In this document: positions 1 to 63,118 of the stretch, one piece after another | Layout of the letters: each line of letters begins with the position of its first letter | How positions within the stretch are numbered: position 1 is the stretch's first letter | Source: Comamonas granuli NBRC 101663 | GTDB lineage: Bacteria > Pseudomonadota > Gammaproteobacteria > Burkholderiales > Burkholderiaceae_C | DNA: 64,000 nt | Assembly (NCBI RefSeq): GCF_000739995.1 | Contig: NZ_BBJX01000009.1 | Span: 62,001 to 126,000 of the forward strand | Direction: 5' to 3' | The notes under the pieces: generated by a model | Seen by the model: the letters and a program-made list of their open reading frames with translations, nothing else | Told to the model about the DNA's origin: nothing | The model's database searches: none | Program-made: the position numbers and the translations under genes

Positions 1-163
1 CCTGCTGCCGCAGGACGGGGAGCCGCGGCGCGACCGCGGCCTGGCGCATGCCGCCTGCGGGCATGCGGCGCAGGCCGTGGAGGATTTGCGTGCCTACCTG
101 GCGCAGCGGCCGGACGCGCCGGATGCCGCCCGCATCGCCGAGCGCATCCGCGGCTTGCTGTGA
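1..163 (+). CDS. SirB1-like (transglutaminase-like/TPR) protein, C-terminal fragment
   Basis: Only the last 53 codons and the TGA stop lie in the window; the gene begins upstream. The visible peptide contains RRDRGLAHAACGHAAQAVED followed by LRAYLAQRPDAPDAARIAER, a helical repeat like the TPR tail that ends SirB1-family proteins (RDRGLAL... AI.DLE.YL...PDA.DA..I..RL). The assignment to SirB1 rests on this tail alone, because no catalytic domain is visible. It ends 66 bp before the convergent stress-protein gene, and a palindromic repeat lies between them. Confidence 0.5.
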   Translation, partial: LLPQDGEPRRDRGLAHAACGHAAQAVEDLRAYLAQRPDAPDAARIAERIRGLL

Positions 164-228
164 TTTTTGGATGAAATAGCCGTGTAGCCCTTATGGATCA
201 AGCGCGACATGCTATGGTAGTGGTAGCG
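164..228 (+). repeat. Dispersed palindromic repeat, copy 1 (intergenic)
   Basis: About 65 bp matching the family pattern seen elsewhere in the window: TTTTGGATGAAAT at the 5' side, a GCCCTTATGGATCAAGCGC core, then ATGCTAT and a GTAGC end. It sits between two convergent genes and could act as a transcription stop. Confidence 0.75.
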
Positions 229-229
229 T

Positions 230-4592: not shown

Positions 4593-6175
4593 TCAAGACC
4601 TTCATCGACAAACTGCTGGGCAAGGCCTCCAAGGGCGGCAACGGCGGCAAGCCCCATTTCGGCAAGCGCGTGGAGGTGCCGGCCAGCGTGCATGGCATCG
4701 ACCCCGCGCTGGTGGACCGCCGCGCCGTGGAGGTGGTGCACACCCTCAAGCAGGCGGGCTACGAGGCCTACGTCGTCGGCGGCGCCGTGCGCGACCTGCT
4801 GCTGGGCCTGCGCCCCAAGGACTTCGACGTGGCCACCAATGCCACGCCCGAGCAGGTCAAGCAGCTCTTTCGCCGCGCCTTCATCATCGGCAAGCGCTTT
4901 CGCATCGTGCACGTGGTGCACGGGCGCGGGCGCGAGCACGAGGTGATCGAAGTCTCCACCTTCCGCGCCTACCTCGATAACGTGGCCGCCGAACAGGTGG
5001 GGGGCAACGAGAAGACCAGCAAGGCGCAACTGGCCGGCATGCAGCACGCCGTGGACGCCAGCGGCCGCGTGCTGCGCGACAACGTCTGGGGCCCGCAGGA
5101 TGAAGACGCCACGCGGCGCGACTTCACCGTCAACGCCATGTACTACGACCCCGAGGCCCAGATCGTGGTGGACTACCACAAGGGCATCCAGGACGCGAAG
5201 AAGAAACTGCTGCGCATGATCGGCGACCCCGCCCAGCGCTACCGCGAAGACCCCGTGCGCATCATCCGCGCCGTGCGTTTTGCGGCCAAGCTCAGCCCCC
5301 TGGGCTTCACCCTGGACCCCAAGACCGCCGCGCCCCTGGCGCAGTCGCAGCACCTGCTGCAGGAGGTGCCGCAAAGCCGCATGTTCGACGAAATGCTCAA
5401 GCTGCTGCAGACCGGCCACGCGCTGGCCACCGTGGAGCAATTGCGCAAGCTGGGCCTGCAGCGCGGCATCTACCCGCTGCTGGACCTAGTGGTCGAGCGC
5501 GCCGACACCCCCCTGGTGCACGCCGCCCTGCAGGACACCGACCGCCGCTTGGCCGAAGGCAAGCGCGTGGCGCCCAGCTTCCTGCTTGCCTGCGTACTCT
5601 GGCAGGACGTGCGCGAAGGCTGGCAGCGCCGCCTGGATGCGCGCGCGCACGCCTTCCCCGCGCTGCAGGACGCCATCGACGAGGTCTTCAACCAGCGCAT
5701 CGGCGACGTCTCGGGCCGCGGCAAGCTGGCCGCCGACATGCGCGAAATCTGGGTCATGCAGCCCCGCTTTGAAAAGCGCGTGGGCCGCATCCCCGAAAGC
5801 ATGGTGGCGCAACTGCGTTTCCGTGCGGGCTTTGACTTCATGCGCCTGCGCGCCGACGTGGGCGAGGTGGACGAAGCCCTGGCCGACTGGTGGCAAAAGT
5901 TCAGCACCGCCGACGAGGACGAGCGCTACGACCTCCTGGAGCAGGCGCGCGAGGAGCAAAAAGCCCGCAGCCGCCAGGCCCAGGGCACCGTGCACCGCGT
6001 GCCGCCGCGCACCCAGGCCGCCGACCCGCGCGGCCTGGCGCTGGAGGAGGGCGGTGACGAACACGCCCCCGACACCGCCTCGCCCAGCGAAGGCAGCGCC
6101 CCCAAGAAACGCCGCCGCCGGCGCCGCAAACCCGGCGGCGCCGCAGGTGGCAGCGCCCCTGCCGCAGACGCGTGA
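4589..6175 (+). CDS. pcnB: Poly(A) polymerase I
   Basis: A 528-residue class II nucleotidyltransferase that adds 3' poly(A) tails to RNA and promotes decay. The catalytic head reads VVGGAVRDLLLGLRPKDFDV (residues 62-81) with the DFD metal-binding carboxylates at 78-80, and RRDFTVNAMYYDP follows as in PcnB/Cca. A C-terminal low-complexity tail rich in Lys/Arg (KKRRRRRRKPGG near residue 510) favours PcnB over tRNA CCA-transferase; the protein is longer than the E. coli enzyme mainly because of this tail. The ATG overlaps the HAD gene stop by 4 bp and the TGA overlaps the folK GTG start, so HAD-pcnB-folK form one translationally coupled unit. Confidence 0.95.
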   Translation: MIKTFIDKLLGKASKGGNGGKPHFGKRVEVPASVHGIDPALVDRRAVEVVHTLKQAGYEAYVVGGAVRDLLLGLRPKDFDVATNATPEQVKQLFRRAFIIGKRFRIVHVVHGRGREHEVIEVSTFRAYLDNVAAEQVGGNEKTSKAQLAGMQHAVDASGRVLRDNVWGPQDEDATRRDFTVNAMYYDPEAQIVVDYHKGIQDAKKKLLRMIGDPAQRYREDPVRIIRAVRFAAKLSPLGFTLDPKTAAPLAQSQHLLQEVPQSRMFDEMLKLLQTGHALATVEQLRKLGLQRGIYPLLDLVVERADTPLVHAALQDTDRRLAEGKRVAPSFLLACVLWQDVREGWQRRLDARAHAFPALQDAIDEVFNQRIGDVSGRGKLAADMREIWVMQPRFEKRVGRIPESMVAQLRFRAGFDFMRLRADVGEVDEALADWWQKFSTADEDERYDLLEQAREEQKARSRQAQGTVHRVPPRTQAADPRGLALEEGGDEHAPDTASPSEGSAPKKRRRRRRKPGGAAGGSAPAADA

Positions 6176-12965: not shown

Positions 12966-13035
12966 CTTCTGCTCCTGAAAACATAGCTGCTAGCGCTTGC
13001 TCCATAAGCGATAGAGCCCGATTTCTTCCTGAAAA
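12966..13035 (-). repeat. Dispersed palindromic repeat, copy 2 (intergenic)
   Basis: Reverse-orientation copy between two convergent genes. Read on the minus strand it has the ATCGGGCTCTATCGC side, TTATGGAGCAAGCGCTAGC core and AGCTATGTTTTCAGGAGCA end. Confidence 0.78.
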
Positions 13036-18530: not shown

Positions 18531-18597
18531 TGATTTAATGCCAAATTGGCATTGAAGCCATACACAGCAAGCGCCAGCAGCTATTGATAAGATAGCA
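18531..18597 (+). repeat. Dispersed palindromic repeat, copy 3 (intergenic)
   Basis: Forward copy that starts at the stop of the acyl-CoA synthetase gene: TTTAATGCCAAATTGGCATT, then ACAGCAAGCGCCAGCAGCTA and a GATAGCA end. The 5' part carries its own small dyad (TGCCAAATTGGCA). Confidence 0.8.
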
Positions 18598-18778
18598 GGC
18601 AAGGCCCCCGGTCCGCTAAACTCGGCGGACCTTGCGTGCCGCGGCTCGCGCCCTGGCTCACCTTGGAGTGGGCGGTGCGGCGTGCTGCGGCCTCTGTGCT
18701 TTGCTGGAGTTCTGGAACGTGCCTCGCCTGCCTGTGTGCCTGCCCTTGCCCCTTGCCCTGCCTGCCCGTAGGGGCGCC

Positions 18779-20625: not shown

Positions 20626-20694
20626 GTTTTTTGAATGAAATCTGCCTCCAGGGCAGATGCTGCATGCGCGACCAGCTACTGAAAAAGGAGCGCT
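20626..20694 (+). repeat. Dispersed palindromic repeat, copy 4 (intergenic, divergent copy)
   Basis: TTTTTTGAATGAAATCTGCC, then CAGCTACTGAAAAAGGAGC. The outer parts match the family, whereas the core (CTCCAGGGCAGATGCTGCAT) has drifted. It lies between convergent genes. Confidence 0.65.
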
Positions 20695-23711: not shown

Positions 23712-23713
23712 GG

Positions 23714-23777
23714 TTTTGAATCAAATTGGCTTGTAACGCCCATGGATCAAGCGCCACAAGCTATTGAAAGAGGAGCT
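23714..23777 (+). repeat. Dispersed palindromic repeat, copy 5 (intergenic)
   Basis: One of the best-conserved copies: TTTTGAATCAAATTGGC, CGCCCATGGATCAAGCGCC, then ACAAGCTATTGAAAGAGGAG. It lies between two minus-strand genes, upstream of DUF924 and downstream of merR. Confidence 0.85.
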
Positions 23778-23784
23778 ATTGCGC

Positions 23785-25425: not shown

Positions 25426-25454
25426 GCGAGGGATGAGCGCAACAGGTTACTGCG

Positions 25455-25511
25455 AATTTTTGCCTTCATCGCCCGTGAGAAAGCGGGAATAGCTATCAAA
25501 ATCGTAGCAAA
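25455..25511 (+). repeat. Dispersed palindromic repeat, copy 6 (intergenic, diverged)
   Basis: TTTTTGCCTTCATCGCCCGT, AAGCGGGAATAGCTATCAAA, ATCGTAGCAAA. The 3' half is well conserved and the core is drifted. Ends at the hepT stop. Confidence 0.6.
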
Positions 25512-25865
25512 TCAGGGCTGAAGTGCAGACACTTGTTTTTGGAGCGCAGGCAGATCGCTCTGCACGGTTTGCCAGACGATGCCCACATCTACGGTGAAGT
25601 AACCATGCGCAAGGGCGTTGCGCATTTCATAGGCAAAGCCCCAAGGCACATGGGCGTGCTCTCGCGCAAAGTCGGGGTGGTTTTTGGCGACGTTGTTGCA
25701 GGCCTCGCCAATGATTTCAAGATTGCGGATCACGGCATCGCAAGTCTTGCGGTCTGCCATGAACGCGGTCAAGTCCATGCCCGCGATGTAGTCCTGAATG
25801 TTGCCGATGGCCTGCTGAATGTGCTGCAAATAATCTGCCACCCGCAGCGGGTGCGCCCGGCTCAT
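25512..25865 (-). CDS. hepT: HepT-like HEPN RNase toxin (DUF86)
   Basis: A 117-residue all-helical HEPN protein. RNALAHGYFTVDV at about 83-95 has the RX4HXY active site of HEPN RNases (R-NALA-H-G-Y), and RNLEIIGEACNNVAKNHP is the preceding family helix. In characterised type VII systems HepT cleaves or blocks RNA and is silenced by AMPylation of the active-site Tyr by MntA. The cognate nucleotidyltransferase gene is directly upstream and overlaps by 4 bp (ATGA). The active-site residues are intact, so the toxin should be functional. Confidence 0.93.
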   Translation of the reverse strand: MSRAHPLRVADYLQHIQQAIGNIQDYIAGMDLTAFMADRKTCDAVIRNLEIIGEACNNVAKNHPDFAREHAHVPWGFAYEMRNALAHGYFTVDVGIVWQTVQSDLPALQKQVSALQP

Positions 25866-26152
25866 ACCGCGATGGCCTCGCGCAGCACCTGATCGCGGAA
25901 GCTCGCGGGCAGGCTGTTGGGGGTCAGCACGTCCACATCCATGCCCAGCAACTGCTTCAGTTCAAACCGGATGGCGCCGATGTCCATCAGCGTGGTTTCA
26001 GCAGTCGGTTCGACCAACAAGTCCAGATCGCTTTCGGGCGTGTCAGTGCCGTGGAGTGCGGAACCAAACACCCGCACGCTGCCGACGCGATGGCGCAACG
26101 CTATCGCGCGGATCTCCGCGCGGTGCTGTGAGAGGGCTTCAGAGGGGCGCAT
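25862..26152 (-). CDS. mntA: MntA-like nucleotidyltransferase antitoxin
   Basis: A 96-residue minimal nucleotidyltransferase. VRVFGSALHGTDTPESDLDL carries GSx10DxD, and the third carboxylate is expected in the strand MDVDVLT. Members AMPylate the Tyr of the partner HepT. It is the first gene of the pair and overlaps hepT by 4 bp. ATG 26152 (MRPSEALSQHRAEI) gives the normal N-terminus; longer in-frame starts exist but add unrelated residues. No clear operator was found upstream. Confidence 0.92.
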   Translation of the reverse strand: MRPSEALSQHRAEIRAIALRHRVGSVRVFGSALHGTDTPESDLDLLVEPTAETTLMDIGAIRFELKQLLGMDVDVLTPNSLPASFRDQVLREAIAV

Positions 26153-26274
26153 GGGCCAAGTGTACTGACAGGGGGCGTGTATCGACAACATGCAACTTCT
26201 TCTGTCCACGGCCACTGGAGCTTGACCCCAAATGCGCTGAGGCCCGTGGCCAGCGTTCATGACCGTCTTTAGAG

Positions 26275-26333
26275 GGTGAAAGCACTTCCAGCCCTTGAAA
26301 TACAAGCGCAAGAAGCTATTAAAATAGAAGCAA
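26275..26333 (+). repeat. Dispersed palindromic repeat, copy 7 (intergenic)
   Basis: TGAAAGCACTTCCAGCCCTT, ACAAGCGCAAGAAGCTATTA and AAATAGAAGCA. Lies between mntA and the next minus-strand gene. The rest of 26153-26350 holds no recognisable gene. Confidence 0.72.
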
Positions 26334-26350
26334 GCTGGGCGCGCAAGAAA

Positions 26351-26680
26351 TCAAGGCGATGAATCCGGCCTGCCCGCCAGCGCACCCAGCAACCGCGCGC
26401 TCACTTCGGTGGCATCGGGCGTGGCGAACTGCATGTTGTGCTGCTCCGTCAGCGGGCCGTGGCCGGGCTCCATGCCACCGGCCGCGTCGTAGCCCATGGC
26501 CTTGAACTTCCAGACCCCGCCCACCTTTTTGAGCGAGCCCACATGCGCGCCTGTGGCTGTGTGCACTGCGACCACCTCGGCGTTGATGGGGAGCAACTGC
26601 AAGGGGCCCGCCACCGGACCGGGCGGTACATGGGCATAGGTGGGTGTGAAGGTCGGCGCGTGGGGCGGGGTCAGAAGCAT
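26351..26680 (-). CDS. Conserved hypothetical protein
   Basis: A 109-residue protein. The central VAVHTATGAHVGSLKKVGGV and WKFKAMGYDAAGGMEPGHGP followed by LTEQHNMQF resemble a conserved orphan family seen in beta-proteobacteria (VG.LK..GGVWKFKA.GY...G...PG.GPLT..HN). Proline-rich N-terminus of uncertain start. No catalytic motif, signal or membrane helix. Lies between a TA module and an IS scar. Function unknown. Confidence 0.6.
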   Translation of the reverse strand: MLLTPPHAPTFTPTYAHVPPGPVAGPLQLLPINAEVVAVHTATGAHVGSLKKVGGVWKFKAMGYDAAGGMEPGHGPLTEQHNMQFATPDATEVSARLLGALAGRPDSSP

Positions 26681-26753
26681 GGCGATGTTTGTATCCCAAA
26701 CGCGCGGGGCCGACCGCCACGCGGATTGCGGTGTGTCAGGGGCGGGCTGCGTT

Positions 26754-26816
26754 CAAGTGTCAAATTGGCATCTGGCGCTTGCAGCTAAAGCGCTAATAGC
26801 TACTGAAAACGTAGCA
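26754..26816 (+). repeat. Dispersed palindromic repeat, copy 8 (adjacent to IS scar)
   Basis: GTGTCAAATTGGCATCTGGC, TTGCAGCTAAAGCGCTAATA, GCTACTGAAAACGTAGCA. Ends about 12 bp before the recognisable transposase remnant. Confidence 0.8.
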
Positions 26817-26827
26817 TTCCAGACCAG

Positions 26828-37647: not shown

Positions 37648-37749
37648 ATGCTGAAAAAAGCGTTTTGGTCAGTATTTCATGCTGCTGTTTGCTGATTTTG
37701 CCCGCAAAACGGCAGCCCATTTTGCTTGTCAAGGAATAGAGTGGCAGCC
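37648..37749 (+). promoter_or_regulatory. mdeB/lrp2 divergent control region
   Basis: AT-rich gap with TTTTG-CCCG-CAAAA dyad (37696-37709), a possible Lrp-type half-site pair. AAGGA at 37731-37735 could serve a GTG start at 37741 (5 nt) or the ATG at 37750 (14 nt). Confidence 0.45.
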
Positions 37750-40410
37750 ATGAACGCACCCACGCCCCTGTCCGCCCTGGCCCCTGCCGAGGGCCTGCCC
37801 GACACCGACCCCCAGGAGACCGCCGAGTGGCGCGAGGCCTTCCTGGCCCTCGTGGCCACCGCAGGCCCCGAGCGCGCGCGCTTCCTGCTCGACGAGCTCG
37901 CGCGCCTGGCGCGCGCCCAGCGCGTGGGCTGGCAGCCGGGCCTGAACACGCCCTATGTGAACACCGTGGCCGTGCAGGACCAGGGCGTGTTCCCCGGCGA
38001 CCTGGCCGTGGAAGAGCGGCTCGCGTCCATCATGCGCTGGAACGCGCTGGCCATGGTGGTGCGCGCCAACCAGGCCTATGGCGAGCTGGGCGGCCACATC
38101 GCCAGCTACGCCAGCGCGGCGGATCTGTTCGAGACCGGCTTCAACCATTTCTTCCACGCCCGCGAGGGCCTGGGCGCGGGCCAGCACCGCGGCGATCTGG
38201 TGTTCTTCCAGCCGCACAGCGCGCCCGGCGTGTACGCGCGTGCCTTCCTCGAAGGGCGCCTCTCCGAGCAGGACCTGATGCACTACCGCCAGGAAATCAC
38301 CGCGCCCAGCGTGGGCGCGCGCGGCCTCTCCAGCTACCCGCACCCCTGGCTCATGCCCGACTTCTGGCAGTTCCCCACGGGCTCCATGGGCATCGGCCCC
38401 ATCAGCAGCATCTACCACGCGCGCTTCATGCGCTACCTCACGCACCGCAACCTGCTCGACTGCACGGGCCGCAAGGTGTGGGGCGTGTTCGGCGACGGCG
38501 AGATGGACGAACCCGAGAGCATGAGTGCGCTGACGCTGGCCGCGCGCGAGGGCCTGGACAACCTCGTCTGGGTGGTCAACTGCAACCTGCAGCGCCTGGA
38601 CGGCCCGGTGCGCGGCAACGGCCGCATCATCGACGAGCTGGAGCGCCTGTTCGCTGGCGCGGGCTGGAACGTGGTCAAGCTGGTCTGGGGCAGCGACTGG
38701 GACGGCCTGTTCGCCCGCGACCTCACAGGCGCGCTGGTGCGCACGCTCGAAGGCACGGTGGACGGGCAGATGCAGACCTTCGCCGCCAAGGACGGGCGCT
38801 ACAACCGTGACAACTTCTTCGGCCAGAACCCCGAGCTGGCCGCGCTGGCCCAGGGCATGACGGACGAGCAGATCGACCGCCTCAAGCGCGGCGGCCACGA
38901 CCTGGTGAAGATCCACGCCGCCTACGCCGCCGCCGCCGCCCACCAGGGCCAGCCCACGGTGATCCTGGCGCACACCAAGAAGGGCTACGGCATGGGTCAG
39001 GCCGGCCAGGGCAAGATGACCACGCACAGCCAGAAGAAGCTGGACGATGGCGACCTCATCGAGTTCCGCAACCGCTTCAACCTGCCTTTGAGCGACGCGC
39101 AGGCCACTGGCCTGGCCTTCTACAAGCCACAGGAGGACAGCGCCGAGATGCAGTACCTGCGCCGCCACCGCCAGGCTTTGGGCGGCTACCTTCCCCGGCG
39201 CGAGACGGTGTGCGAGGCGCTGCCCGTGCCGCCCCTCGCCAGCTACGCGCAGTTCGCGCTGGCGGCCGATGGCAAGGAGATGAGCACCACCATGGCCTTC
39301 GTGCGCATGCTGGGCACGCTGCTGAAAGATGGGCAACTCGGCCCGCGCATCGTGCCCATCGTGGCCGACGAGGCACGCACCTTTGGCATGGCCAACCTGT
39401 TCAAGCAGGTCGGCATCTACAGCAGCGTGGGCCAGCGCTACGCGCCCGAGGACATCGGCTCGGTGCTGAGCTACCGCGAGGCGCTGGACGGCCAGATCTT
39501 GGAAGAAGGCATCAGCGAAGCGGGTGCGATTGCGAGCTGGACGGCGGCGGCCACCAGCTACAGCGTGCACGGCCTGGCCATGCTGCCGTTCTACATCTAC
39601 TACTCCATGTTCGGCTTCCAGCGCGTGGGCGACGCCATCTGGGCCGCCGCCGACCAGCGCGCGCGCGGCTTTTTGCTGGGCGCCACCTCGGGGCGTACCA
39701 CGCTGGGCGGCGAGGGCCTGCAGCACCAGGACGGCAGCAGCCACCTCGTGGCCGCCACCATCCCCAACTGCAAGGCCTACGACCCGGCCTTCGCGGGCGA
39801 GATGGCCGTCATCATCGACGCCGGCATGCGCGAGATGGTGACCGAGCAGCGCGATGTGTTCTATTACGTCACGCTGATGAACGAGAACTACGCCCAGCCC
39901 GACCTGCCACCCGGCGCGCACGAGGGCGTGCTGCGCGGGTGCTATATCTTCAATAGCTACCCGCGCTTGTCGGGTGGGCGTCAGAGCCCTTTTTCATCTG
40001 AAAAATCCGTGACCCTGCTGGGCTCCGGCGCCATCCTCACCGAGGTCATCAAAGCCGCCGCGCTGCTGGCCGCCGAGGGCATTGCCGCCACCGTGGTCAG
40101 CGTGACGAGCTGGAGCGAACTGGCGCGCGACGGCCAGGCCTGCGAGGCGCGCCTGCTGGCGGGCGAGCCGGCCCCCGGCACGCCCTGGATTGCCCAGGTG
40201 CTGCAGGCCACGCAGGGCCCGGTGGTCGCCGCCACCGACTATGTGCGCGCCGTGCCCGAGACCGTGCGCGCCTTCCTGCCGCCGGGGCGGCGCTTAGTCA
40301 CGCTGGGGACGGACGGCTTCGGCTGCAGCGACACGCGGGCTGCGCTGCGCAGCCACTTCGGCGTGGATGCGGCGCACATCGCCCAGGCCGCGCGCCACCT
40401 GGTGGCTTAG
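37750..40410 (+). CDS. mdeB: AceE-type 2-oxoacid dehydrogenase E1 (probable 2-oxobutanoate dehydrogenase, mdeB-like)
   Basis: An 886-residue homodimeric E1, TPP-dependent. GDGEMDEPESMSAL with WVVNCNLQRLDGPV is the GDG...N TPP motif, and QRYAPEDIGSVLSYREALDG and SGRTTLGGEGLQHQDGSSHL are typical of AceE. Adjacency to mdeA and an Lrp gene makes a 2-oxobutanoate dehydrogenase more likely than the housekeeping pyruvate enzyme, as in P. putida mdeB; no E2/E3 genes follow. Residues about 730-753 (GCYIFNSYPRLSGG...) derive from a dispersed palindromic repeat read antisense and in frame. Start ATG 37750; GTG 37741 is an alternative with better ribosome-site spacing. The MITE-like hairpin begins right after the stop. 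Confidence 0.88.
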   Translation: MNAPTPLSALAPAEGLPDTDPQETAEWREAFLALVATAGPERARFLLDELARLARAQRVGWQPGLNTPYVNTVAVQDQGVFPGDLAVEERLASIMRWNALAMVVRANQAYGELGGHIASYASAADLFETGFNHFFHAREGLGAGQHRGDLVFFQPHSAPGVYARAFLEGRLSEQDLMHYRQEITAPSVGARGLSSYPHPWLMPDFWQFPTGSMGIGPISSIYHARFMRYLTHRNLLDCTGRKVWGVFGDGEMDEPESMSALTLAAREGLDNLVWVVNCNLQRLDGPVRGNGRIIDELERLFAGAGWNVVKLVWGSDWDGLFARDLTGALVRTLEGTVDGQMQTFAAKDGRYNRDNFFGQNPELAALAQGMTDEQIDRLKRGGHDLVKIHAAYAAAAAHQGQPTVILAHTKKGYGMGQAGQGKMTTHSQKKLDDGDLIEFRNRFNLPLSDAQATGLAFYKPQEDSAEMQYLRRHRQALGGYLPRRETVCEALPVPPLASYAQFALAADGKEMSTTMAFVRMLGTLLKDGQLGPRIVPIVADEARTFGMANLFKQVGIYSSVGQRYAPEDIGSVLSYREALDGQILEEGISEAGAIASWTAAATSYSVHGLAMLPFYIYYSMFGFQRVGDAIWAAADQRARGFLLGATSGRTTLGGEGLQHQDGSSHLVAATIPNCKAYDPAFAGEMAVIIDAGMREMVTEQRDVFYYVTLMNENYAQPDLPPGAHEGVLRGCYIFNSYPRLSGGRQSPFSSEKSVTLLGSGAILTEVIKAAALLAAEGIAATVVSVTSWSELARDGQACEARLLAGEPAPGTPWIAQVLQATQGPVVAATDYVRAVPETVRAFLPPGRRLVTLGTDGFGCSDTRAALRSHFGVDAAHIAQAARHLVA
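39939..40008 (-). repeat. Dispersed palindromic repeat, copy 9, in frame inside mdeB
   Basis: Read on the minus strand: GATTTTTCAGATGAAAAAGG, CTCTGACGCCCACCCGACAA, GCGCGGGTAGCTATTGAAGA, TATAGCA. It agrees with the family at both ends and contributes about 23 codons to mdeB without stop. Confidence 0.8.
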
Positions 40411-45577: not shown

Positions 45578-45645
45578 TTTGCTATGAAAAAAAGAGCTGC
45601 TCGCGCTTTATCCCAGGGCGCTGGAGCCGTTTTTGTCTGATTTCT
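45578..45645 (-). repeat. Dispersed palindromic repeat, copy 10 (intergenic)
   Basis: On the minus strand: AAATCAGACAAAAACGGCTC, CAGCGCCCTGGGATAAAGCG, CGAGCAGCTCTTTTTTTCAT, AGCAAA. Situated between the sdaA start and the hpnC stop on the same strand. The remainder of 45405-45685 has no recognisable gene. Confidence 0.78.
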
Positions 45646-46584: not shown

Positions 46585-46634
46585 TTGACAAGCGGCAGGC
46601 GATCACATAGATTACTAACCAGTCAGTCAGTAAT
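46585..46634 (+). promoter_or_regulatory. RND operon promoter with TetR-type operator
   Basis: -35 TTGACA (46585-46590), 17-bp spacer, -10 TAGATT (46608-46613): near-consensus. Immediately after, ATTACT (46611-46616) and AGTAAT (46629-46634) are inverted arms around CTAACCAGTCAGTC-like sequence, the style of TetR/AcrR operators controlling efflux operons. No tetR gene is next to it. Confidence 0.75.
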
Positions 46635-46649
46635 TTTCTGGACCCACCC

Positions 46650-47867
46650 ATGCGCACCTCGTCCGCACCGCGGCCCCGTCAGGGGCTTTTTTTGGTTTCC
46701 GCCGCCCGGCCCGGGGCCCAGGCGGCCGCTGCGGCGGCGGCGCTGGCCCTGCTGGCCGCCTGCACGCCCGCCGAGCCTGTGGCCGAGCCCGTGCGCGCGG
46801 TCAAGCTGCTGACCGTGGGCGCCAGTGCGCTGCAGGCCGAGCAGGAATACGCCGGCGAGGTGCGTGCGCGCGTGGAGTCGCGCCTGGGCTTTCGCGTGGC
46901 GGGCAAGCTGGTCGAGCGCCCCGCGCAACTGGGCCAGCGCGTGCAGGCCGGGCAGGTGCTGGCGCAGCTCGATCCGCAGGACTACCAACTGAGCGCCGCC
47001 GCGGCGCGCGCCCAGGTGGCCGCCGCGCAAACCCAGTACGACCTGGCGGCGGCAGACTTCCAGCGCTTTGCCAAGCTGCAGGAGCAGAACTTCATCAGCG
47101 GCGCCGAGCTCGAGCGCCGCGAGAGCGCGCTGAAGGCGGCGCGCTCGCAGTTGCAGCAGGCCCAGGCCCAGGCGCAGGCGCAGGGCCACCAGGCGCAGTA
47201 CACGCGCCTGCTGGCCGATGCCGCGGGCGTCATCACCGCTATCGAGGCCGAGCCCGGCCAGGTGGTGGCGGCGGGCACGCCGGTGCTGCGCCTGGCGCAG
47301 GACGGCGCGCGCGACGTGGTGTTTGCCGTGCCCGAGGACAAGGTCGCCCGCCTGCGGGCGGGCCAGCCGGTGCAGGTGCGCGCCTGGGCCACGGGCGCGT
47401 CCCTGCCCGGCACGGTGCGCGAGGTGGCGGCCAGCGCCGACCCGGTCACGCGCACCTTCACCGTCAAGGTGGACATCGCCGCGGCCAGCGCGCCGCCGCT
47501 GGGCTCCACGGTGTACGTGGCGCCGCAGGCGCTGGCGGCCCAGGGGCAGCAGGCCATCAAGCTGCCCACCACGGCGCTGCGCCAGGAGGGCCAGGCCACG
47601 GCGGTGTGGGTGTACGAGGCCGACAAGGGCACGGTGCGCTCGCAGGCCGTGCAGGTGGCCACGGCCGACGGCAATGAGGCCGTCATCGTGGGCGGTCTCA
47701 CGCCCGGCATGCAGGTGGTGAGCACCGGCGTGCATGTGCTCACGCCGGGGCAGAAGGTCGTGGTCTATCAGCAAAAATCGGCTCCAGGGCAATCTGGGCA
47801 GGCGCAAGCAGCTACAAAAACAGTAGCAAATGGCGCCGCGCCGGCCGCGGCCTCCTCTGCCCAGTGA
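46650..47867 (+). CDS. RND efflux periplasmic adaptor (membrane fusion) lipoprotein
   Basis: A 405-residue adaptor. Hydrophobic N-terminus (AAAALALLAAC, lipobox Cys at about 38), lipoyl half LGFRVAGKLVERPAQLGQRV, a long coiled-coil hairpin (about 110-175, rich in Gln/Ala), and beta-barrel with FAVPEDKVARLRAGQPVQVR. It joins the inner-membrane RND pump to an outer-membrane channel. Residues about 374-394 (KSAPGQSGQAQAATKTVANG) are encoded by a dispersed palindromic repeat read in frame, extending the C-terminus. The permease start follows seven bases after its stop. Substrate unknown. Confidence 0.93.
   Translation: MRTSSAPRPRQGLFLVSAARPGAQAAAAAAALALLAACTPAEPVAEPVRAVKLLTVGASALQAEQEYAGEVRARVESRLGFRVAGKLVERPAQLGQRVQAGQVLAQLDPQDYQLSAAAARAQVAAAQTQYDLAAADFQRFAKLQEQNFISGAELERRESALKAARSQLQQAQAQAQAQGHQAQYTRLLADAAGVITAIEAEPGQVVAAGTPVLRLAQDGARDVVFAVPEDKVARLRAGQPVQVRAWATGASLPGTVREVAASADPVTRTFTVKVDIAAASAPPLGSTVYVAPQALAAQGQQAIKLPTTALRQEGQATAVWVYEADKGTVRSQAVQVATADGNEAVIVGGLTPGMQVVSTGVHVLTPGQKVVVYQQKSAPGQSGQAQAATKTVANGAAPAAASSAQ
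47770..47830 (+). repeat. Dispersed palindromic repeat, copy 11, in frame inside RND adaptor
   Basis: AGCAAAAATCGGCTCCAGGG, CAATCTGGGCAGGCGCAAGC, AGCTACAAAAACAGTAGCAA. Forward orientation; codes for about 20 residues at the adaptor C-terminus. Confidence 0.75.
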
Positions 47868-57385: not shown

Positions 57386-57402
57386 GTGAGGCTGTAGTCA
57401 AT

Positions 57403-57478
57403 GCGGGAATAGCTCAGTTGGTAGAGCGCAACCTTGCCAAGGTTGAGGTCGAGAGTTCGAGACTCTTTTCCCGCTCCA
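57403..57478 (+). tRNA. tRNA-Gly (GCC anticodon), copy 1
   Basis: 76 nt with encoded CCA. Acceptor GCGGGAA/TTCCCGC, D-arm AGCTCAGTTGGTAGAGC, anticodon loop TTGCCAA with GCC at 57436-57438, T-arm GAGTTCGAGACTC. Identical to copy 2 at 57718. Confidence 0.98.
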
Positions 57479-57668: not shown

Positions 57669-57717
57669 GCGAGGCTTGCCAGCCTAGGTCTGCGACAGCA
57701 GGTCGAACAGGCACCGT

Positions 57718-57793
57718 GCGGGAATAGCTCAGTTGGTAGAGCGCAACCTTGCCAAGGTTGAGGTCGAGAGTTCGAGACTCTTTTCCCGCTCCA
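57718..57793 (+). tRNA. tRNA-Gly (GCC anticodon), copy 2
   Basis: 76 nt, sequence identical to copy 1 (315 bp upstream) including CCA. The gene dose of this isoacceptor is doubled, as is common for the GCC anticodon in GC-rich genomes. Confidence 0.98.
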
Positions 57794-58718: not shown

Positions 58719-59591
58719 TTAACGCGGATGCGGCACGTCCACCGTGGCGCAGCAGTGCGGCGGCAGTTGCAGCCAGCGCTGGGCGGCGTTTTGCAGCGGC
58801 TCCAGCGCGCCGGTGGTCAGCAGGGTGATGCGCTCCTGCGGCAGGGGCGGCAGCCCGCTCTCTGCGGCCAGGGTGCCGGCGGCCTGCAGCAGGCGGCGCG
58901 TCTGGCGCGCCACGGGCTCACCCGTGGCGATCAGCGTGACGCCGGGGCCCAGCAGGTCGCGCAGCACCTCCTGGGCGAAGACGTAGTGCGTGCAGCCCAG
59001 CACCAGGGTATCGATGTCTCCGGGATTTGAGCCAAATCGGCCCATAGCGCCCGTGTAGCGGGCGCAAAGCGCTCTTATTTCAGTAGCGTCCTGCACCGCG
59101 GCGGGCGGTACGGCCGTGCTGCGCTCGATGGCGTGGGCCAGGCCGTTGCAGGGCTGGACGATGAACTCCGCCTGCCCGTGCAGCGAGGCCAGCAACCGGG
59201 CGAACTTGTGGCTGCTGAGGGTGCCGCGCGTGCCGATCACGCCGATGCGCCCGGTGCGTGTCGCGGCCACGGCGGGCTTGAGCGCGGGCTCCACGCCCAC
59301 CAGGGGCAGTTGCGGATGGCGTGCGCGCGCTTCGTGGATGGCGGCGGCCGTGGCCGTGTTGCAGGCCACGACCAAGGCCTTGATGTGGTGCTGCGTGCAG
59401 AGGTAGTCGCCAATGGCGTGCGTGCGCGCCGCCACGAAGGCGTCACCGCGCTCGCCGTAGGGCGCGTTGCCGCTGTCGGCCAGGTAGACGAAGCGCTCGT
59501 GCGGCAGCTCGGTGCGCAGCGCCTGCAGCACGCTCAGGCCGCCGACGCCGCTGTCGAACACGCCGATGGGCTGCTGCGCTGCGTCGGTCAT
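58719..59591 (-). CDS. murI: Glutamate racemase
   Basis: A 290-residue enzyme making D-glutamate for peptidoglycan. [13 protein letters not shown] with D13, [12 protein letters not shown] with C77 (first catalytic Cys), and [13 protein letters not shown] with C200 (second) are the racemase set. Residues about 168-189 ([18 protein letters not shown]...) come from a dispersed palindromic repeat read antisense in frame, an extra loop between the two half-domains not seen in typical MurI. Both Cys are intact. ATG 59591 begins [10 protein letters not shown]. Same strand and just downstream of the fumarase gene (26-bp gap), so probably cotranscribed. Confidence 0.95.
59024..59089 (+). repeat. Dispersed palindromic repeat, copy 12, in frame inside murI
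   Basis: GGATTTGAGCCAAATCGGCC, CATAGCGCCCGTGTAGCGGG, CGCAAAGCGCTCTTATTTCA, GTAGC. The gene reads the opposite strand through the whole element without a stop, in a frame different from that used in mdeB. Confidence 0.8.
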
Positions 59592-59617
59592 GCGTGCGGC
59601 AGAGAGCGCCCGGGCGG

Positions 59618-61168
59618 TCAGCCGGCGTTGACGCTGATGCCCTTGAACTCGCCCGTGGCGATGCGCTTTTGCCACTCGGCCGGGCCGGTGATGTGGGCGC
59701 TGGTGCCGCCGGCGTCCACGGCCACGGTCACGGGCATGTCCACCACGTCGAATTCGTAGATGGCTTCCATGCCCAGATCGGCAAAGCCCACCACCTGGGC
59801 GCCCTTGATGGCCTTGGAGACCAGGTAGGCGGCGCCGCCCACGGCCATGAGGTAGGCGCTCTTGTGGTTCTTGATGGCCTCGATGGCGGCGGGGCCGCGC
59901 TCGGCCTTGCCCACCATGGCGATCAGGCCGGTGCTCGAGAGCATCATGTCGGTGAACTTGTCCATGCGCGTGGCGGTGGTCGGGCCGGCGGGGCCGACGA
60001 CTTCATCGCGCACCGGATCGACGGGGCCGACGTAGTAGATCACGCGGTTGGTGAAGTCCACGGGCAGCTTCTCGCCCTTGGCCAGCATGTCCTGGATGCG
60101 CTTGTGCGCGGCGTCGCGGCCGGTGAGCATCTTGCCGTTGAGCAGCAGGGTCTGGCCGGGCTTCCAGCTCGCGACCTCTTCCTTGGTGAGCGTGTTGAGG
60201 TCCACGCGCTTGCTGGTCTCGGTGTTGGGCGCCCAGTCCACCTTGGGCCAGAGGTCCAGGCTGGGCGGGTCCATGTAGACCGGGCCGGAGCCATCCATCA
60301 CGAAATGGGCGTGGCGCGTGGCCGCGCAGTTGGGGATCATGGCCACGGGCTTGCTGGCCGCGTGCGTGGGGTACATCTTGATCTTCACGTCCAGCACCGT
60401 GGTCAGGCCGCCCAGGCCCTGCGCGCCGATGCCCAGGGCGTTGACCTTCTCGAACAGCTCCAGGCGCAGCTCTTCCACCTGCGTGAGCTTCTCGCCCCGC
60501 GCGCTCTTGGCCTGCAGCTCGTACATGTCCAGGTCGTCCATCAGGCTTTCCTTGGCCAGCAGCACGGCCTTTTCGGCCGTGCCGCCGATGCCGATGCCCA
60601 GCATGCCCGGCGGGCACCAGCCGGCACCCATGGTGGGCACGGTCTTGAGCACCCAGTCCACCAGGTTGTCGCTGGGGTTCATCATGACCATCTTGGACTT
60701 GTTCTCGCTGCCGCCGCCCTTGGCCGCGACGGTGATGTCCAGGGTGTCGCCGGCCACGATCTCGGTGAAGATGACGGCGGGCGTGTTGTCCTTGGTGTTC
60801 TTGCGCGCGAACAGCGGGTCGGCCACCACGCTGGCGCGCAGCGTGTTGTCGGGGTGGTTGTAGCCGCGGCGCACGCCTTCGTTGACGGCGTCTTCCAGGC
60901 TGCCGGTGAAGCCTTCCCAGCGCACGTTCATGCCCACCTTGAGGAAGACGTTGACGATGCCCGTGTCCTGGCAGATGGGGCGGTGGCCGTAGGCGCTCAT
61001 CTTGCTGTTGGTCAGGATCTGCGCCATGGCGTCCTTGGCGGCGGGACTTTGCTCGCGCTCATAGGCGCGGGCCAGGTGCTGGATGTAGTCGGCCGGGTGG
61101 TAGTAGCTGATGTACTGCAGCGCGGCGGCGATGGACTCGATCAGGTCTTCTTGGCGGATGGTCGTCAT
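59618..61168 (-). CDS. Class I fumarate hydratase (iron-sulfur)
   Basis: A 516-residue single-chain class I fumarase of the FumA/FumB type, interconverting fumarate and malate with a [4Fe-4S] cluster. [18 protein letters not shown] has the first Cys, [19 protein letters not shown] the core loop, and [20 protein letters not shown] the C-terminal part. Start [20 protein letters not shown] at ATG 61168. It is divergent from the class II fumarase, 120 bp apart. Oxygen-sensitive cluster; the two enzymes could serve different oxygen regimes. Confidence 0.95.
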
Positions 61169-63043: not shown

Positions 63044-63108
63044 ATTCGCTATCAAAAAAATAGCTTCCAACGCTTGTATATAGGGCGCTGGAAGCTGTTT
63101 TTATATGT
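63044..63108 (-). repeat. Dispersed palindromic repeat, copy 13 (intergenic)
   Basis: Minus strand: ATAAAAACAGCTTCCAGCGC, CCTATATACAAGCGTTGGAA, GCTATTTTTTTGATAGCGAA. Between convergent DUF2249 and mnmH genes. The extended GCTTCCAGCGC...GCGTTGGAAGC palindrome suggests a bidirectional terminator. Confidence 0.82.
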
Positions 63109-63118
63109 ATTGCTCCGC

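Follow-up and report, generated by a model that had tools for sequence, protein, structure and literature searches.

A dispersed palindromic repeat lies in frame within mdeB of Comamonas granuli and is probably kept for its DNA sequence

What is a palindromic DNA repeat doing inside the coding sequence of an enzyme, and what has kept it there? The question is raised by a stretch of 64,000 nucleotides from Comamonas granuli NBRC 101663 (contig NZ_BBJX01000009.1, positions 62,001 to 126,000 of the forward strand; hereafter the window), where the mdeB gene, encoding an E1 dehydrogenase of the AceE type, reads through a copy of a repeat that is dispersed in the same genome. Judging from sequence comparisons, we consider it likely that this segment represents an in-frame copy, acquired long ago, of a ~67-bp repeat specific to the family, and that this copy is translated and has been kept mainly for its DNA sequence. 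The gene and the segment are:

37750..40410, + strand: mdeB, coding sequence of an AceE-type (homodimeric) E1 dehydrogenase of 886 aa (open frame; TIGR03186 and TIGR00759; Pfam PDH_E1_M and Transketolase_C_1; AceE structures by sequence)
39939..40005, + strand: in-frame repeat copy, mdeB residues 730-752 (model R1, built without the mdeB copy: 50.4 bits, E 2.1e-12)

The mdeB product exceeds the NCBIfam cut-offs for TIGR03186 (1460.9 bits; cut-off 1408.3) and for TIGR00759 aceE (1288.3 bits; cut-off 859.9). Taken from the ATG at 37750 (the listed open reading frame begins with a TTG at 37726), its frame continues without interruption or frameshift to the stop at 40410, and the initial annotation was correct in stating that reading passes straight through the repeat. 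In an alignment with E. coli AceE, the stretch past GVLRG is longer and dissimilar. R1, a covariance model trained on 22 copies from this genome, the mdeB copy not among them, matches 39939-40005 over its full length (1-67), and the GC content of this segment is 49%, as compared to 68% for the whole window. That a dispersed palindromic repeat is present in mdeB, as had been proposed from the letters alone, is thereby confirmed. That the segment is native to the protein and resembles the repeat only fortuitously is a scarcely conceivable explanation; it would call for clear R1 matches in loops of repeat-free genera, and the single such match observed is a weak one (MutS of G050, 12.8 bits). A C-Y-x-F pattern also occurs in several mdeB loops without the repeat, and QxWPL is present in DapF proteins of non-carriers, but the E-values of a model blind to the mdeB copy, the same motif in many unrelated genes, and the concordance of its presence with the repeat content of the genomes rule this explanation out.

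How does the enzyme accommodate the segment? In the predicted structure of the mdeB product, strands are formed by residues 731-737 and 753-759, and residues 741-750 between them have a mean pLDDT of 53, while the flanking blocks reach 92 and 91 (overall mean 76.5, with further stretches that are poor too). Mapping onto a structure, as suggested in the initial annotation, thus puts the repeat copy close to where the C-terminal domain begins, at a predicted loop that joins two strands and varies in length among homologues.

Comparison with relatives indicates that the copy is not a recent arrival. Among 97 mdeB loci given to R1, 38 match in the loop (own locus counted; E up to 1), the weakest of them, mostly Rhodoferax- and Polaromonas-like rows, being uncertain at ~14-20 bits. 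All 38 matches begin 59 nt after the first base of NENY and hence share one register; relatives with the repeat in this register rule out a recent insertion into mdeB. The nearest named mdeB is that of Simplicispira lacusdiani (93%). Of the same-genus loci that span the loop, 11/12 carry the repeat, own locus included; this count leaves out L038, a fragment without the loop, and fragment G006:C53. In a tree of mdeB built without the loop, 28/34 rows of the Acidovorax-group clade are carriers. The distance from NENY to GSG is 49-50 residues in most carriers and 41-45 in the measured loci of Variovorax, Hydrogenophaga, and Limnohabitans, which translates into a net gain of ~4-9 residues and means that the repeat mostly replaces the native loop. 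The earlier claim that about 23 codons were inserted thus holds insofar as the repeat codes for residues 730-752, but not as a measure of added length. Homologues outside the repeat-bearing groups have different and mostly shorter loops, which speaks against native sequence, and the mdeB copy appears to be old and common to related genera.

Two loci deserve separate mention. The exception within the genus, L035 from a metagenome-assembled genome (G019), has an mdeB loop that is just as long but gives no repeat match, and its neighbours differ (EADVVKGCYKF); this locus may reflect transfer or a contaminating contig. In L089, a metagenome-assembled genome of the Burkholderiales, the mdeB loop (near 5113-5334) contains a different inverted repeat in frame, TCGACAAGCTCA ... 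TGAGCTCGTCGA, so that two unrelated repeats have apparently entered this loop.

If loop residues derive from the repeat, in-gene copies should be tied to genomes in which it is dispersed. Across the family, the repeat was found in 19/40 genera with 1 to 129 matches each (E at most 1e-6; 129 candidates scored per genome), and the remaining 21/40 gave zero matches at this threshold; an order-wide scan with stricter filters returned 1/80 genomes, which is the own one. For MutS, TrmJ, and GluQRS, we compared 30 loci per gene, drawn from the 40 genera. Presence in the gene was set by hand with the loop position checked, and matches outside the loop, or within it at <15 bits, were counted as absent (in-loop cases: MutS of G050, 12.8 bits; TrmJ of G031, 12.8 bits; GluQRS of G052, 12.5 bits). 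Listed as genome and gene positive, genome only, gene only, and neither, the counts were 14, 4, 0, and 12 for MutS; 10, 7, 0, and 13 for TrmJ; and 11, 5, 0, and 14 for GluQRS. When at least 10 matches were required to call a genome positive, they became 13/2/1/14, 9/5/1/15, and 11/2/0/17, respectively. Clear in-gene copies of these three genes are thus restricted to genera with the dispersed repeat, which argues that the loop residues come from the repeat.

The mdeB copy, to which the initial annotation referred, does not stand alone: of 148 copies examined in this genome, 11 more are located in frame within genes. These 148 distinct copies (137 from loci, i.e. 30 + 107, plus 13 from the window, minus 2 duplicates) are the best-scoring ones, with 7/150 scored copies left out, and 12/148 is consequently no genome-wide rate. 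All 12 are flanked on both sides by coding-type codon usage and themselves score negative in the codon usage of the host. Eight carriers other than mdeB score above a curated NCBIfam cut-off: GluQRS, DnaX, dihydrolipoyl dehydrogenase, a TrmJ/YjtD-type protein, DapF, MutS, MurI, and a 5-oxoprolinase/urea-amidolyase-related protein. The remaining three comprise a lipoyl E2 protein (below cut-offs) and two weakly named proteins, one methyltransferase-like and one FAD-enzyme-like. The copies in dnaX, lpd, and the E2 gene sit between domains. In-gene copies occur on either gene strand and in mixed frames, five of six by our own reading of the data, with an Ala/Pro/Gln-rich reading being the commonest. 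Two of the 12, those of mdeB and murI, are located in the window, which also contains a copy read in frame at the end of an efflux gene that is not among the 12:

59023..59089, - strand: in-frame copy in the glutamate racemase (MurI) frame 58722-60002 (-) (R1, 61.5 bits; TIGR00067 glut_race, 171.7 bits, cut-off 146.65; coding flanks)
47763..47829, - strand: copy contributing in frame to the C-terminal tail of a resistance-nodulation-division (RND) efflux adaptor (46611-47864, +) (R1, 42.5 bits; TIGR01730)

Elsewhere in the genome, two copies are found 3' of an aceE paralogue, at L052 4474-4540 (= L266 95-161) and L266 1501-1567. One lies in frame before the FAD part of dihydrolipoyl dehydrogenase, and the reading of the other (38.8 bits) resembles a putative E2 linker. 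Similar profile matches adjoin aceE in L041, L045, L051, L053, and L055.

What, then, is preserved in these copies, the peptide or the DNA? We took codons ending in A or T in one species and determined how often they were kept by other species with the same residue, inside versus outside the repeat, the carriers being chosen by repeat score. The fraction kept was 0.63 inside versus 0.27 outside for mdeB, 0.84 versus 0.42 for DapF, 0.79 versus 0.31 for MutS, 0.74 versus 0.34 for TrmJ, and 0.88 versus 0.27 for GluQRS. By number of kept codons, none of the equally long outside stretches matched the repeat in any of the five alignments, and by fraction, no outside window reached the inside value in DapF, MutS, TrmJ, or GluQRS. 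At the corresponding site of five DapF genes that lack the repeat, the control values were 0.49 inside (70 comparisons) and 0.52 outside. Third-base conservation at 52 four- or sixfold degenerate sites follows the column information of the R1 copies (rho 0.52, p 9e-5), with a mean of 0.80 for the 22 informative columns and of 0.57 for the 17 uninformative ones; at some of the 52 sites the third base is the preferred G or C, which contributes to the correlation, and given that sites and species are non-independent, p-values are indicative only. Amino acid identity is lower inside the repeat than outside (0.55 versus 0.88 in mdeB, 0.34 versus 0.67 in GluQRS), and within the GluQRS repeat third positions (0.65) are more conserved than first (0.57) and second positions (0.55). 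In mutS, where the GC content at third codon positions is 0.88 outside the repeat, CTA is found in 21/21 genus carriers, and CTA CAA AAA is present in 13/14 family carriers (CTA TCA AAA in L367) as well as in genus-level carriers. It is the DNA motif, and not the peptide, that appears to be preserved in the in-gene copies.

The same pattern could be produced by ectopic gene conversion, i.e. the rewriting of in-gene copies from other genomic copies, which would keep the consensus without selection. Donors are plentiful (13 copies per 64 kb), and in-gene copies accompany genomes with the dispersed family. However, the locus-specific CTA CAA AAA persists in mutS although genomic copies differ by ~39% (average pairwise identity among own-genome copies, 61%), which leans towards purifying selection; in our judgement, gene conversion is quite unlikely.

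Did the copies add to the proteins or replace parts of them? The TrmJ loop comprises 52-59 aa in 8/10 carriers (71 in L392; L399 was measured from another start) and, in the measured non-carriers, 36-44 aa in 12/18 and 48-75 in the other six. For GluQRS, the loop comprises 53-62 aa in 10/11 carriers, compared with 33-43 aa in 13/17 measured non-carriers and 52-68 in the other four (lengths exclude two TrmJ and two GluQRS loci, and L427, like L399, was measured from a different start point). TrmJ and GluQRS have therefore gained length in frame, and long loops arise without the repeat, too. In MutS, there is no net gain: the distance from RPR to RDG is 61 residues in 13/14 family carriers and in 8/15 measured non-carriers. 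DapF carriers and genus-level non-carriers are likewise nearly equal in length. The absence of a length gain in MutS and DapF implies that simple addition does not fully describe how the copies came in, unless native sequence was trimmed afterwards.

These lengths bear on the possibility of a tolerated selfish insertion, in which, as proposed for Rickettsia palindromic elements (RPEs), a mobile repeat lands in frame in loops or linkers and is not purged, its DNA being under no selection. In-gene copies are few (12/148), several of them are located in linkers, loops or tails, and the TrmJ and GluQRS carriers show the net gain that such insertions would leave. The genome also encodes one Y1_Tnp protein above the Pfam cut-off that resembles transposases associated with repetitive extragenic palindromic (REP) sequences, the REP-associated tyrosine transposases (RAYTs); its gene (L381 1162-1908, -) scores 79.2 bits, just under the NCBIfam REP-transposase cut-off of 80, has a weak 17-bit repeat match beside it, and is a candidate mobiliser of the repeat. 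A neutral relic, however, should drift towards the GC-rich codons of the host, whereas A/T-ending codons are kept, and more so at motif columns; nor does an insertion account for MutS without a net length gain. We thus regard tolerance of a selfish element as a somewhat unlikely explanation.

The properties of the dispersed family itself speak to two further explanations. With R1, the window contains 13 matches at E < 1e-9, among which are, in addition to the copies given above:

163..229, - strand: dispersed repeat copy (R1)
12969..13035, + strand: dispersed repeat copy (R1)
18532..18598, - strand: dispersed repeat copy (R1)
20627..20693, - strand: dispersed repeat copy (R1)
23712..23778, - strand: dispersed repeat copy, top score in the window (R1, 66.2 bits)
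25445..25510, - strand: dispersed repeat copy (R1)
26267..26333, - strand: dispersed repeat copy (R1)
26751..26817, - strand: dispersed repeat copy (R1)
45579..45645, + strand: dispersed repeat copy (R1)
63046..63112, + strand: dispersed repeat copy, soon after a TAA closing a frame (by eye; R1)

Three of these copies are found inside 1.4 kb (25445-26817). The genome holds at least 150 copies, as all 150 scored candidates, part of 3245 first-look candidates, match R1 (weakest E, 2.2e-8), and the density in the window suggests a total of probably several hundred. Their mean GC content is 47% (147 copies). The consensus of the 127 copies outside the in-frame set, ntGCTattnantnnATAGCTgctnGCGCTTGntgganaaGCGCTggAGgCcnaTTTnactnnaAann, carries 67 bits of information in total, and parts of it look palindromic. 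Among 132 copies between genes, 86 are in tandem, 37 in convergent, and 9 in divergent arrangement, and 142/160 adjacent gene 3' ends are located at most 50 nt from a copy (4/136 copies are omitted from this count: two with one side uncalled and two inside a called gene). Placement is thus mostly at gene ends, as for REP sequences.

A DNA uptake signal, or a similar recognition signal spread by molecular drive, would likewise accumulate in coding sequence. Like DNA uptake sequences, the repeat is a genome-wide, family-specific motif that also occurs within genes, where it is conserved at the level of the motif and on either gene strand. Known uptake sequences are, however, far shorter than this 67-bp repeat with its 67 bits of information, and most copies sit at gene ends; we therefore consider an uptake signal very unlikely. 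Similarly improbable is a role of the hairpin at the RNA level, in stability, pausing, or termination of the mRNA. The mdeB copy folds better than shuffled sequences on both strands (z -3.9 and -5.6), intergenic copies cluster at 3' ends with few in divergent positions, and the 22-copy alignment displayed a weak excess of covariation. With 127 copies, this excess is gone (1659 pairs versus 1656.8 expected), in-gene copies use either gene strand and five of six frames, and a conserved RNA hairpin is not claimed here.

How might a DNA sequence come to be retained within mdeB? We propose that the repeat entered the gene in an ancestor common to the Acidovorax/Simplicispira group, or possibly before that, and that it landed in a loop of variable length close to where the C-terminal domain begins. 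Given the open and conserved frame, it would be translated in the cell as part of the protein, and the enzyme might tolerate it because of its location in that loop. Amino acids would then be free to change, with those synonymous positions that suit the motif being held more constant, and the likeliest cause would be a role of the DNA, for example as a site for a candidate DNA-binding factor acting in trans. A broader version of this proposal, in which the repeat constitutes a family-specific, genome-wide DNA site that is recognised in trans and selected within roughly a dozen conserved genes (mutS, dapF, trmJ, gluQRS, mdeB, and others), is more tentative and somewhat less probable than its opposite.

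Several observations weigh against retention for the DNA sequence. Plain synonymous identity fails to separate the repeat from the gene: it is 0.707 inside versus 0.733 outside for mdeB, 0.749 versus 0.684 for DapF, and 0.813 versus 0.703 for MutS, and in all three the inside value is lower than that of the best outside windows (0.845 in both DapF and MutS). For mdeB, 6/977 outside windows reach the inside fraction of kept A/T-ending codons, which makes the fraction test weaker for this gene. Continuing gene conversion would keep the motif, too. The 127-copy covariation does not support that the palindrome itself matters. With the threshold of 10 matches, MutS and TrmJ of one genus (G056, three genomic matches) carry in-gene copies without many in the genome, the weak MutS match of G050 comes from a genome with zero matches, and the Fisher tests of concordance ignore kinship. 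Finally, the mdeB tree requires at least 14 label changes (nine forced by starred branches; 32.5 in shuffles). A single gain cannot explain this unless copies were also lost or the labels are noisy; otherwise, the repeat must have been gained repeatedly.

How does the repeat relate to known systems? According to the available text of two accounts, RPEs are small palindromic repeats found between genes and in frame in conserved protein genes (PMC2229807, PMC3733652), with a length of 105-146 bp (PMC2229807). The 12/148 copies in unrelated conserved genes behave likewise. In contrast to RPEs, the repeat is ~67 bp long, belongs to a beta-proteobacterial family, shows codon constraint at motif columns, and causes a smaller net gain, or none in MutS. 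The likeness to RPEs drawn in the initial annotation is apt for comparable behaviour, but a merely tolerated insertion does not predict retention at synonymous sites; comparing descriptions rather than RPE sequences, we would say that the repeat works like an RPE without filing it as one, since the length differs. REP sequences are likewise short, palindromic, numerous, and mostly found at gene 3' ends; the consensus ends here, however, lack a GTAG or CGTC tag (127 copies, by eye), and some copies are in frame. The beta-proteobacterial repeat elements (BREs), as far as the consulted parts of their description go, also occur in Comamonadaceae, with some copies wholly within coding sequence, and in Bordetella measure 75-91 bp at 69% GC with at most 29 copies per genome (Hot et al., 2011; Table 2, PMC3110155). 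Compared by description and not by sequence, the repeat shares with them the occurrence in Comamonadaceae and the copies inside coding sequence, and it differs in length (67 bp), mean GC content (47%), and copy number (at least 150). Miniature inverted-repeat transposable elements (MITEs) such as the enterobacterial ERIC/RU and the 107-bp Correia elements of Neisseria have open frames fused in frame to genes (PMC2229807, in part); they belong to other lineages, and their descriptions, in the portions considered and with sequences uncompared, mention no synonymous constraint. Among open-licence papers, we recognised no account of this repeat in Comamonadaceae.

Accounts of protein-coding palindromic repeats exist for Rickettsia and Wolbachia as well as for a few MITEs, and in the portion of the text considered such repeats are discussed as mostly neutral insertions (PMC2229807). 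The same behaviour is now seen in a beta-proteobacterial family and extends to core genes, mutS and dapF among them, and the codon signature, together with the confinement of clear carriers to genomes with the dispersed family, makes a DNA function of such repeats directly testable. Some conserved loops may accordingly record a constraint on DNA and not on protein function. If our proposal is true, a non-coding requirement of the DNA would have dictated which amino acids make up enzyme loops while many genera diverged, and protein-coding repeats could be retained for a DNA function rather than tolerated as selfish DNA.

In an Rfam search of the window, tRNAs were the only entries to reach gathering scores. 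Two identical tRNA copies of 77 nt, at 57402-57478 and 57717-57793, are located 315 nt apart with another tRNA in between.

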